64,000 bases of DNA from Bacteroidaceae bacterium (GTDB taxonomy: Bacteria; Bacteroidota; Bacteroidia; Bacteroidales; Bacteroidaceae), in NCBI GenBank assembly GCA_024398785.1, contig JAKSIO010000010.1, forward strand, positions 1 to 64,000. The letters are read 5' to 3'. A program made the position numbers and the translations under genes. The stretch's first letter is position 1; every line of letters begins with the position of its first letter. The notes below the pieces were generated by a model, which worked only from the letters and a program-made list of their open reading frames with translations, was not told where the DNA came from and searched no databases. Positions 4,770-33,213 of the stretch are shown piece after piece.

Positions 4770-4785
4770 TGTTTCACGTGGAACA
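4770..4785. promoter_or_regulatory. Candidate parS (ParB-binding) site
   Basis: The 16-mer TGTTTCACGTGGAACA differs by one base from the classical parS consensus TGTTTCACGTGAAACA and by one base from its fully palindromic form TGTTCCACGTGGAACA. It begins right after the mnmG stop codon and its last A is the first base of the uvrC ATG, so the whole intergenic space is the site. parS sites are normally clustered close to the replication origin, and a strong oriC candidate lies about 9.1 kb away. No parA or parB gene is in the window. Sequence match is direct; ParB binding is inferred. Confidence 0.8.
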
Positions 4786-13263: not shown

Positions 13264-13875
13264 ATGAAAAGAAAACTGTTCATCATATTGACCTTTAGTT
13301 TACTAAACCTGCCGCCTGCATTCTCAAAAAAGGAAACTGTAGAATACAGTATCAGACAGCTGGCTCCCTCTGCCAACGTACGTCCGGAAGATCAGATACA
13401 GTCCTATATATTTCCCGACGTTGTCATCTGGGGCAGATACGCAGGGGCTCAGAAAAAGGAAAGACGTAAACTTGACAGAATGGTAGTAGCAGTAAAAAAA
13501 ACGTATCCTTATTCTCTGGAAATAAAAGGCATCCTGATTGAAACATATTTATACATGCAAACATTAAAAGATCAGGAAGAACGTGATAAATATATAAAAG
13601 AAGTAGAAAAGGGGGTATGGAAACAATATCTTCCGGAAATGAAAAAACTTACTCTTTTCCAGGGTAAAATGCTGATAAAACTAATTGACCGTGAATGTAA
13701 TCAGACAAGTTACGAATTGATCAAGGCATTTATGGGTCCTTTCAAAAGCGGATTTTACCAGATGTTTGCAGGGTTGTTCGGAGCAACATTAAAAAAAGAA
13801 TATGATCCTGAGAACTGTGAAGAGGATTCAATAATTGAGGAAATAATAGAAATGATTGAAAACGGAGAATTATAA
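13264..13875 (+). CDS. DUF4294 family exported protein
   Basis: 203-aa protein of the Bacteroidota-restricted DUF4294 family; function unknown. A signal peptide covers about residues 1-21 (ending PPAFS). The mature part has the family's conserved start (IFPDVVIWGRY, about 49-59), a basic helical middle and an acidic C-terminus (CEEDSIIEEIIEMIENGEL). Its promoter places the transcript start almost on the ATG. The gene ends at the left edge of the candidate origin. Family assignment is from recognised sequence pattern, not from a search. Confidence 0.85.
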   Translation: MKRKLFIILTFSLLNLPPAFSKKETVEYSIRQLAPSANVRPEDQIQSYIFPDVVIWGRYAGAQKKERRKLDRMVVAVKKTYPYSLEIKGILIETYLYMQTLKDQEERDKYIKEVEKGVWKQYLPEMKKLTLFQGKMLIKLIDRECNQTSYELIKAFMGPFKSGFYQMFAGLFGATLKKEYDPENCEEDSIIEEIIEMIENGEL

Positions 13876-14297
13876 TGCATTGTTGAAAACTCTGTTCATA
13901 ACCTGTTGATAAAGTTGATTTGTCGGTTAAAAGTAAGTTTATAAATAGAGTCTCATAAATTTGTAAGACTGACAAAAAAAATCTGATAAAACCAATTGCA
14001 ATAATCCAAAATTTTCAAGGGAAAAATTACAACTTTTATATAAACAGGAAAACAACAACATATAAACAGTCAAAAAAACAATATTTATCAACAGCTATAA
14101 TTATCAACAGCATGTTAATAAGTACATTATTACATTGAATATCAATAAATTAAGTTGTTAATTACTTTGTTTATAAACCAAAAAAAATTGTGGATAACCA
14201 TAAAACCCGTTACAGAGTATTAAAGTTATCCACAATTTCAACAATATACTATAACTACTATACTTTTTATAAAAAAATAAAAGTATATGTTGTATTA
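13876..14297. other. Candidate chromosomal replication origin (oriC)
   Basis: A 422-bp gene-free block between two genes that both end there, so it is not a promoter region. By my count bases 13921-14280 contain 82 G+C in 360 (about 23%). Two perfect DnaA boxes TTATCCACA occur at 14226-14234 (plus) and 14189-14197 (minus). One-mismatch relatives of TTATNCACA occur at 13893-13901 (minus), 13904-13912 (minus), 14085-14093, 14101-14109 and 14113-14121 (minus). The stretch between about 13920 and 14180 could serve as unwinding element. A parS-like site lies 9.1 kb to the left and the rpoBC operon is transcribed away from it. dnaA is not in the window. Strong circumstantial case; not proof. Confidence 0.75.
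14187..14236. repeat. Inverted pair of perfect DnaA boxes
   Basis: ATTGTGGATAAC (14187-14198) and GTTATCCACAAT (14225-14236) form a perfect 12-bp inverted repeat with a 26-bp spacer. Each arm contains the DnaA consensus TTATCCACA. A terminator function is unlikely because the spacer is long and no T-run follows directly. Confidence 0.8.
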
Positions 14298-15728
14298 TTA
14301 ACGTATGTATTCTTCTGGAATATCAGGCAGCAGTTCATACTTCAACAAATATTCAATAACATGTGCGAATGTTTCAGCATCAAAAAATTCCGCAGCTGAC
14401 ATTGTTTCTGTTCCATTGAATTCAATGAAAGGATTAATGGTGAAATCATCTCCTTTCTTAACTTCTTTCAGAGTAATAATGTTAGGTGTATAATTTATAT
14501 TTCTATAACCCAGACTGTTGCTCATATTGGAATTGAATTTTTCCACGTAATTTAATGTTTCAGTTGAGTCTGTTGTTTTTATACCGTTTTCAAAATCGGA
14601 AATAAACTTATAAGGATCTTTAATCATTCCTCTTATTTCAACTGAATCCATAATACCTATACAGTACTTGAGATCTTTTATTGAATCATTAAGGGTCATA
14701 TTGTTTTCAATTTCAATATCGTCAAATGATATGTCACCGCCCAATATTAAATCTTTTATATCTAAGTCAATATTGACTATTACATCACCTACAAGCATAT
14801 AATTGCCTTCAATTTCAGCATCAATATATTTTTCATAATCTTTCATATATCCTTCAATATAGGTTTTGGTATAACCGTTCTTAAAATCAATATTAAGTTT
14901 GAATCCCATATTGTTAACCTTTATGTCTGCTTTTGAGCTGATTGAACATTTGTTAGGATTATCAAAATATGAATTTATATCTGTTATGTCTGAATTGATA
15001 TTGGCACTTAAAAGTTCTACATTACCCTTTTTCAATGTAATGCCAATTTGACTTGGAATACTTATGTAAACAAGAGTCTCTTGAACGTCATATTCTCTTG
15101 TTAATTTACCGTCTATTACATTTTCGTTCTTTAATGTTCTTGTTCTGTTATACTTGCATATATACGCATTAGTTACGGTACCTTTTGCATTTATGGTAAA
15201 GGTATGTTTTGTACCTGTTGAATCATTAAAGTTGAATATCAGATTAGTTTTATTTTTTTTGTCTGTATTTTTCCATTCTTTATCGTCTGCTGTAAAAGTT
15301 CCCTTGAAATCTGTAATAGGAAAAGTTTCCATGGATTGAGTACAGTTTTCAATTATGGTTGAATCTGCAGTTTCCTTTACATTTCTTTTGGTTCCTTTGG
15401 ATTTGTGGCTACTTAATCCCGATATACCAATGCTCAAAAATTTTGTCTTAATATCATTAAAACCATAATTCTCATTATTCAAATAATGGTTATATGCATA
15501 CTGCAGTACGTTTATAGCATCATATATTTTGGGTTCGTTAAAGTTTTCTGTAAACTGTTTTGTAACTTCTGCAATATATGCCTTCTGTTCCTGCACACTG
15601 AATACTATTGGTTCTCCCGGTTGCGATGGATTTGGGTTATTACCCGGATCTACCGGTGACTCTTTTGAACATGAAAATGAAAGGACAAGTACTGTTGCCA
15701 GTGCTAATGATTTGAAAAATTTTTTCAT
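14298..15728 (-). CDS. Putative lipoprotein of unknown family
   Basis: 476-aa protein I do not recognise. It begins with a lipoprotein signal peptide with the acylatable cysteine at C20 (VLVLSFSC-SKE), followed by a proline-rich linker (residues 25-42) and a long, Asn/Asp/Lys-rich region of alternating beta-type segments. It is likely anchored in the outer membrane. The composition (many N, D, I, K) is typical of surface lipoproteins of this phylum. It is the last gene of the leftward cluster and ends at the candidate origin. The 76-bp gap to the next gene has only a poor promoter match, so it may be transcribed separately or with the DUF4249 gene. Confidence 0.75.
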   Translation of the reverse strand: MKKFFKSLALATVLVLSFSCSKESPVDPGNNPNPSQPGEPIVFSVQEQKAYIAEVTKQFTENFNEPKIYDAINVLQYAYNHYLNNENYGFNDIKTKFLSIGISGLSSHKSKGTKRNVKETADSTIIENCTQSMETFPITDFKGTFTADDKEWKNTDKKNKTNLIFNFNDSTGTKHTFTINAKGTVTNAYICKYNRTRTLKNENVIDGKLTREYDVQETLVYISIPSQIGITLKKGNVELLSANINSDITDINSYFDNPNKCSISSKADIKVNNMGFKLNIDFKNGYTKTYIEGYMKDYEKYIDAEIEGNYMLVGDVIVNIDLDIKDLILGGDISFDDIEIENNMTLNDSIKDLKYCIGIMDSVEIRGMIKDPYKFISDFENGIKTTDSTETLNYVEKFNSNMSNSLGYRNINYTPNIITLKEVKKGDDFTINPFIEFNGTETMSAAEFFDAETFAHVIEYLLKYELLPDIPEEYIR

Positions 15729-32184: not shown

Positions 32185-33213
32185 ATGAGATACATTTGTT
32201 TAATGACAGGATTGGTTCTAAGTATGGCCGTAATGGCCCAGCCAACCCGCAGAATACAGGAACAGGAACTGCGTGAACAGCAGGGTGGAGCGGTGGAACT
32301 CACCCAGCGCGCTCGTGCACAGTATAACACACAATCTGCCTTGGAGACGGATGTTGAGTGGAGTCGCGATATTTATCGTGAACTTGACCTCAACAATGAA
32401 CGCAATGCGGCACTTTACTATCCCTCTGAACCGTTAGGAGAGCAGGTCAATTTCTTTACTATGCTTCTGCGTCTGTTGCTGGACGGTAAAATCAAGGCCT
32501 ATGAATACCGTCTTGACGGTAATGAACTTTTTACAAAAGACAATGAACTTGATGTGAAAAACATGTTGGAAAAGTTCTACATATATTATCAGGAAGATGA
32601 AAACGGCAAACTTTCAGTAGCTCTTGAAGACATCCCCTGTGCTGAGGTACAGAAATACTATATCAAAGAATCCAATTATGTAGACCGCCGCACATCAACA
32701 TATTCCACTCATGTTATGGCAATATGTCCGGTAATCATGCGTGCCGACTACGGAGCAGAGCCTGTCCCGTATCCAATGTTCTGGCTAGATTATAACAACA
32801 TAAGTTCATATCTGCGCATAACTCCCGCAATGACAAGCAGTTACAACAATACTCGCAATATGTCTCTTGACGATTATTTTGTTATGGGACGTTACGAAGG
32901 CAAGATTTATAAGACCAGCAACCTGCAGAATAAACCATTGGCAGATTACTGTAAAACTGATTCCGCTATGGCTGCAGAACAGGAACGTATTGAAAGTGAG
33001 CTTTCTACATTTGAAAACCAACTTTGGAACAGCAGTTCAACACCAAAGAAAAACAAGGTGCAGAACAGTGAACCGGAAAGTGAAATTTCAGAAAACGGCA
33101 TATCCCAACAATCAAAGAAAGAAGACCGTGAACCGGTTACACGTGAAACAAAAACCAATAATAAACAAACTTCTGCAGAAAAACCCAGAATCAGTGTACG
33201 ACGTGAAAGATAA
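32185..33213 (+). CDS. porN: Type IX secretion protein PorN/GldN with charged tail
   Basis: Periplasmic partner of PorK in the ring of the type IX secretion system. The 342-aa product has a signal peptide ending VMAQ, the family core (VEWSRDIYRELDLNNERNAA and LYYP around 50-80, a conserved DYNNISSYL-type segment near 200) and then a low-complexity tail of about 60 residues rich in E, S, K and N (from about 280), which I do not regard as part of the usual fold. I start at the ATG at 32185; earlier in-frame TTG at 32158 lies inside porM. Confidence 0.92.
   Translation: MRYICLMTGLVLSMAVMAQPTRRIQEQELREQQGGAVELTQRARAQYNTQSALETDVEWSRDIYRELDLNNERNAALYYPSEPLGEQVNFFTMLLRLLLDGKIKAYEYRLDGNELFTKDNELDVKNMLEKFYIYYQEDENGKLSVALEDIPCAEVQKYYIKESNYVDRRTSTYSTHVMAICPVIMRADYGAEPVPYPMFWLDYNNISSYLRITPAMTSSYNNTRNMSLDDYFVMGRYEGKIYKTSNLQNKPLADYCKTDSAMAAEQERIESELSTFENQLWNSSSTPKKNKVQNSEPESEISENGISQQSKKEDREPVTRETKTNNKQTSAEKPRISVRRER

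Follow-up and report, generated by a model that had tools for sequence, protein, structure and literature searches.

The AT-rich intergenic block at positions 13876–14297 of the window (the whole 64-kb stretch of DNA analysed) is very probably the chromosomal origin of replication, oriC. This reading, put forward in the initial annotation, is supported by the correspondence of the block to the skew-minimum block of two Bacteroidaceae chromosomes, and by a strand-corrected switch in base composition at or next to it. A DnaA-box cluster, AT-richness, conservation of position, the skew switch and proximity to a parS-like site coincide at the block, which would give an uncultured Bacteroidales lineage an origin of precise position that can be tested.

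The block is 422 bp long and lies between two convergent genes, and its coordinates and the termination of both genes at its edges are as first described (Table 1). The G+C content is 23.2% over the whole block and 22.5% over 13921–14280, where about 23% had been given. The lowest-GC 300–360 bp of the window lie inside it, and the stretches of 50, 100 and 300 bp that are thermodynamically weakest in the window, by nearest-neighbour energies, are all in or at the block, with the weakest 50 bp starting at 14250. An easily melted AT-rich stretch beside the boxes, as expected of an oriC, is thus present. The lipoprotein-like ORF to the right has no Pfam match. No G+C-rich terminator is found within the block, and an AT-only hairpin near its right end is possibly the terminator of the lipoprotein-like gene or a piece of the unwinding element.

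Table 1. Coordinates of the proposed origin and associated features in the window.
Feature	Position	Strand	Basis and remarks
Proposed oriC (AT-rich block between genes, with clustered DnaA boxes)	13876..14297	.	Boxes, composition, positional counterpart of relatives' skew-minimum block
DUF4294 (PF14127) protein gene	13264..13875	+	3' end at 13875; conserved origin neighbour in Bacteroidaceae
Lipoprotein-like ORF	14298..15728	-	3' end at 14298; lineage-specific right neighbour of block
TTATCAACA box, left member of inward-facing pair with 14101	13904..13912	-	One mismatch to TTATCCACA
TTATCAACA box	14085..14093	+	One mismatch to TTATCCACA
TTATCAACA box, right member of inward-facing pair with 13904	14101..14109	+	One mismatch to TTATCCACA
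Degenerate box TTATTAACA	14113..14121	-	Relaxed match
Degenerate box TTATAAACA	14168..14176	-	Relaxed match
Exact 14-bp inverted repeat holding both TTATCCACA boxes head-on	14185..14238	.	Hand reading; arms 14185-14198 / 14225-14238
Perfect DnaA box TTATCCACA	14189..14197	-	Exact match
Perfect DnaA box TTATCCACA	14226..14234	+	Exact match
Least stable 100 bp of window, candidate unwinding element beside perfect boxes	14211..14310	.	Nearest-neighbour energies; role inferred
AT-only 9-bp hairpin TATACTTTT/AAAAGTATA	14259..14287	.	Inverted-repeat search
parS-like GTTTCACGTGGAAC, between mnmG and uvrC, 9.1 kb from block	4771..4784	.	Sequence match; also between these genes in G001 and G011

The two perfect TTATCCACA boxes claimed for the block are there, they are the only matches to this sequence in the window, and they lie head-on with 28 bp between them. 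Both are held in an exact inverted repeat, as had been proposed, and only its length needs correction, from 12 bp to 14 bp by hand reading; a repeat-finding tool reports the same structure as 86% complementarity over 22 bp. One-mismatch boxes are also present, and five had been counted; a strict count gives three, all of them TTATCAACA, and nine boxes are found in the block if one mismatch to TTATCMACA is allowed. Two of the TTATCAACA boxes, 13904(-) and 14101(+), form an inward-facing pair 197 bp apart.

The cluster exceeds chance and is unique in the genome, as expected of an oriC. A 331-bp stretch of the block contains five TTATCMACA boxes. A first-order Markov model built on the block predicts 0.027, and in 20,000 simulated sequences the count never rose above two. 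The whole assembly (2,073,052 bp in 41 contigs) contains 98 TTATCMACA sites and has no second place where more than two lie close together; the head-on TTATCCACA pair occurs once in the genome, and the density of relaxed boxes in the block is the highest in the approximately 527 kb of this genome scanned. A box cluster could instead serve to titrate DnaA or to regulate, as at datA or DARS of Escherichia coli, without being an origin, and both the lineage-specific nature of the strict head-on pair and the displacement of the raw skew minimum by about 11 kb are consistent with such a role. We nevertheless consider this very unlikely, as the genome has no other box cluster to act as origin, the block is the AT-richest DNA of the region, and in two chromosomes the counterpart block coincides with the skew switch.

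The parS-like DNA claimed about 9 kb away corresponds to GTTTCACGTGGAAC, which is also present between mnmG and uvrC in two relatives of the same genus (G001:C23:21566 and G011:C19:178474), 8.5–9.4 kb from the block. In Phocaeicola vulgatus and Bacteroides fragilis a single parS-like site is found about 94 and 103 kb, respectively, from the trmH block. Two further parS-like sites were seen, a second, GTTACACGTGAAAC, at 33136–33149 of the window near the 3' end of gldN, and a third, GTTACACGTGTAAC, at G000:C1:13747 of the same genome. The DnaA protein of this genome, encoded on G000:C5, has a C-terminal domain with the canonical box-reading motif GGRDHATVLHA, so that a DnaA with the box-reading domain expected for an oriC is available. 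The gene is not near the block, as was first remarked, and lies on another contig; this is normal for the phylum, since Bacteroidetes often have their origin at a distance from dnaA (PMC4755523). Indeed, in every genome checked dnaA is either on another contig or, on single-record chromosomes, more than 500 kb from trmH; the P. vulgatus record is numbered from dnaA, which is at base 400. The main text of a paper on the DnaA-trio and basal unwinding element makes no mention of Bacteroidetes (PMC8287927).

The window's contig (C2) begins at dprA. The genes further left in G001 include bamA, which in this genome is at C1:6044, so that contig C1, reversed, probably precedes C2, a junction predicted from synteny with G001. 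Across this join the skew drops at about 22 per kb through the 400 kb on the left and climbs on C2 to the right. The raw cumulative minimum, predicted to fall within 1 kb of 14.1 kb, does not do so: it is at about -42 kb or, when a low-GC island is left out, at window position 2657, approximately 11 kb from the block on the parS/mnmG side. In G001 and G011 it is likewise on the parS/mnmG side, 8.5–10 kb from the block, and the raw minimum of the genus is close to the mnmG–uvrC parS-like site. The island (G000:C1 32,500–42,500) is a 10-kb segment with a G+C content of 0.37 and skew of opposite sign; it lies about 40 kb from the left end of the window and is possibly a mobile element. We rejected raw cumulative skew as a locator at 1-kb resolution, as it is ambiguous here, being distorted by the C1 island (about 32–42 kb) and by the mnmG–polA gene block. 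Transcription of mnmG, uvrC, deoC and polA runs toward the block, and this orientation plausibly accounts for the offset of the minimum.

Strand effects were corrected by taking third codon positions of minus-strand genes only, five on each side of the block. Third-position skew is positive to the left (dprA +0.11, murI +0.16, ompH +0.32, pps +0.21, HhH gene +0.06) and negative to the right (lipoprotein-like -0.13, DUF4249 -0.23, TonB -0.35, hydrolase -0.01, ABC -0.14). Its sign thus flips between the two sides of the block (p=0.0095 in a 20-kb test), and the two best points at which to split the window by strand-corrected skew are on either side of DUF4294, the gene adjoining the block. The switch in strand composition expected of an oriC is therefore found at or next to the block after correction, with the raw minimum offset by about 11 kb. 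Strand-corrected change-point fits over whole contigs of G001 and G032 were uninformative and did not return the block as the best split.

The Escherichia coli origin adjoins gidA (mnmG), and an origin at mnmG/parS, at about 2.7–4.8 kb of the window, would reduce the block to an AT-rich gap. The raw skew minimum lies there in this genome and in G001 and G011, and parS is located there, but the intergenic gaps measure merely 73 and 15 bp, there is no TTATCMACA site, and mnmG, uvrC, pps, polA and the HhH gene all show left-arm skew once strand is corrected for, while transcription of mnmG–polA toward the block would itself shift the raw minimum. We give this location even less credence than a titrating or regulatory cluster.

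Support for an origin at the block comes also from the family. We assembled 80 loci around DUF4294 from public genomes, mostly of Bacteroides and Phocaeicola. In 69 of these trmH is near DUF4294, mostly immediately after it, with an AT-rich block 5' of trmH, so that the usual order in Bacteroidaceae is DUF4294, trmH, AT-rich block; the window block shares the DUF4294 side of this neighbourhood. In P. vulgatus ATCC 8482 (one record of 5,163,189 bp) the sampled skew is negative over 0–1.54 Mb, positive over 1.54–3.87 Mb and back to negative values at 4.39 Mb, and a fine scan places the minimum at 1,539,822, on the right-hand boundary of the AT-rich 300-bp stretch that lies 5' of trmH (match at 1,538,754–1,539,275). 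The single 4.03-Mb scaffold of B. mediterraneensis gives the same two-arm pattern, with more noise, and its fine-scan minimum, at 3,789,620, is inside the AT-rich 300 bp 5' of trmH. Judged by skew in the usual way, the origin of both chromosomes is thus the block 5' of trmH, of which the window block is the positional counterpart.

An inward-facing box pair spaced by 195–201 bp is present in 41 of 73 family blocks, against 0.05 expected after shuffling, although these genomes are related and the counts are not independent events; the 13904(-)/14101(+) pair of the window block corresponds to this arrangement of about 198 bp. The block of P. vulgatus and other Bacteroidaceae has in common with the window block the DUF4294 side, low G+C, the inward pair and the skew minimum, but differs in having trmH adjacent and weaker boxes with no strict head-on pair, whereas in the window trmH has moved away. 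Because the block lies in the origin neighbourhood of the whole family, it is not a new kind of element. No explicit published trmH-side origin in Bacteroides was found in the literature searched, nor did we find the family-wide positional rule, a predicted origin 5' of trmH beside DUF4294, stated in the papers searched.

A further sequence, TAACTTTGC, is positioned mid-origin in 63 of 73 family blocks (for example L150, L143 and L113), and its orientation, where read, is away from trmH and toward a nadA-like gene. We rejected it as an origin motif, as it is promoter-like and absent from the window block; we take it to resemble the -7 element of Bacteroides promoters, and it suggests conserved transcription inside the family origin.

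In the closest relative, G001, the block is in the same place and is the lowest-GC stretch of a 170-kb contig. Its identity to the window block is 80%, counting aligned columns only, in an alignment that is gapped and AT-rich. The same 46-bp head-on TTATCCACA pair is present, with an inner 28 bp that differs in sequence but is equal in length. Beyond G001 the strict pair was not found in the other relatives searched, and no TTATCCACA clusters were found in the DNA adjoining DUF4294 of other congeners. Conservation of the block beside DUF4294, initially proposed as a check, holds for G001, down to identical spacing of the box pair. A block of 20–30% G+C is directly 5' of trmH in all 18 of the other congeners whose trmH locus was read. 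DUF4294 no longer adjoins the block in G011, and the congeners read have the block after trmH. Over 400 kb each of G011 and G032, the 300 bp of lowest G+C (22% and 19%) fall between porZ and trmH, with polA or DUF4294 close by. That the block is an ordinary AT-rich spacer between convergent genes, which often hold AT-rich terminators, with boxes present by chance, fits the 9-bp AT hairpin but is almost certainly wrong given the Markov simulations, the box spacing kept in G001 and the family-wide conservation.

A trmH-side origin in Bacteroidaceae is expected directly 5' of trmH, and the window block does not lie there. In this genome trmH is at G000:C1:89391 and porZ at about 63 kb of C1, both with no AT-rich block, such that the window block is the counterpart by its DUF4294 side only; trmH and porZ have moved away, leaving the block beside DUF4294. 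In G001 porZ also has no AT-rich block, and the trmH locus is apparently cut on its 5' side by a contig end. A regulator-like ORF of 376 aa (G001:C23 31521–32651) directly to the right of the block in G001 is absent from the window, and the right flank seems prone to insertion. The strict TTATCCACA pair seems to be lineage-specific and to have strengthened an older arrangement of weaker boxes. Tentatively, and with somewhat more doubt than conviction, we suggest that the origin was rebuilt in this lineage, through loss of trmH and porZ from its side and addition of the head-on TTATCCACA pair to ancestral weak TTATCAACA boxes about 198 bp apart, and that DnaA loading has changed relative to other Bacteroidaceae.

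If the block is the origin, DnaA would anchor on the head-on TTATCCACA pair and spread over the weaker TTATCAACA and TTATAAACA boxes, opening the adjacent very AT-rich DNA, most likely at 14211–14310, where the helicase would be loaded and replication would start in living cells. Forks would leave in both directions, to the left through polA–mnmG and then contig C1, and to the right through the rnr–gld–rpoBC side. The E. coli oriC is alike in having TTATCCACA boxes beside an AT-rich unwinding region and mnmG (gidA) in the neighbourhood, although it differs in box order, spacing and neighbours. Chromosome I of Prevotella intermedia OMA14 has a predicted oriC (PMC4755523) which, like the Bacteroidetes origins in DoriC, resembles the block in having multiple DnaA boxes in a short region, a GC-skew transition and a location far from dnaA; the comparison covers boxes, skew and distance from dnaA, and the strict head-on pair is a feature of the lineage described here.

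No experimental origin work in the Bacteroidetes was found in the papers searched, and the conserved pair of weak inward-facing boxes, spaced by about 198 bp, would offer initiation studies in the phylum a concrete target. Read-depth methods for growth rate and work on strand bias in gut Bacteroidaceae depend on the right origin position, which the family rule would place 5' of trmH beside DUF4294 and not at dnaA. As a separate observation, 22 of the 25 TTATCMACA sites on contig C1 of this genome are on the minus strand, so that along the left arm they are strongly biased in strand.
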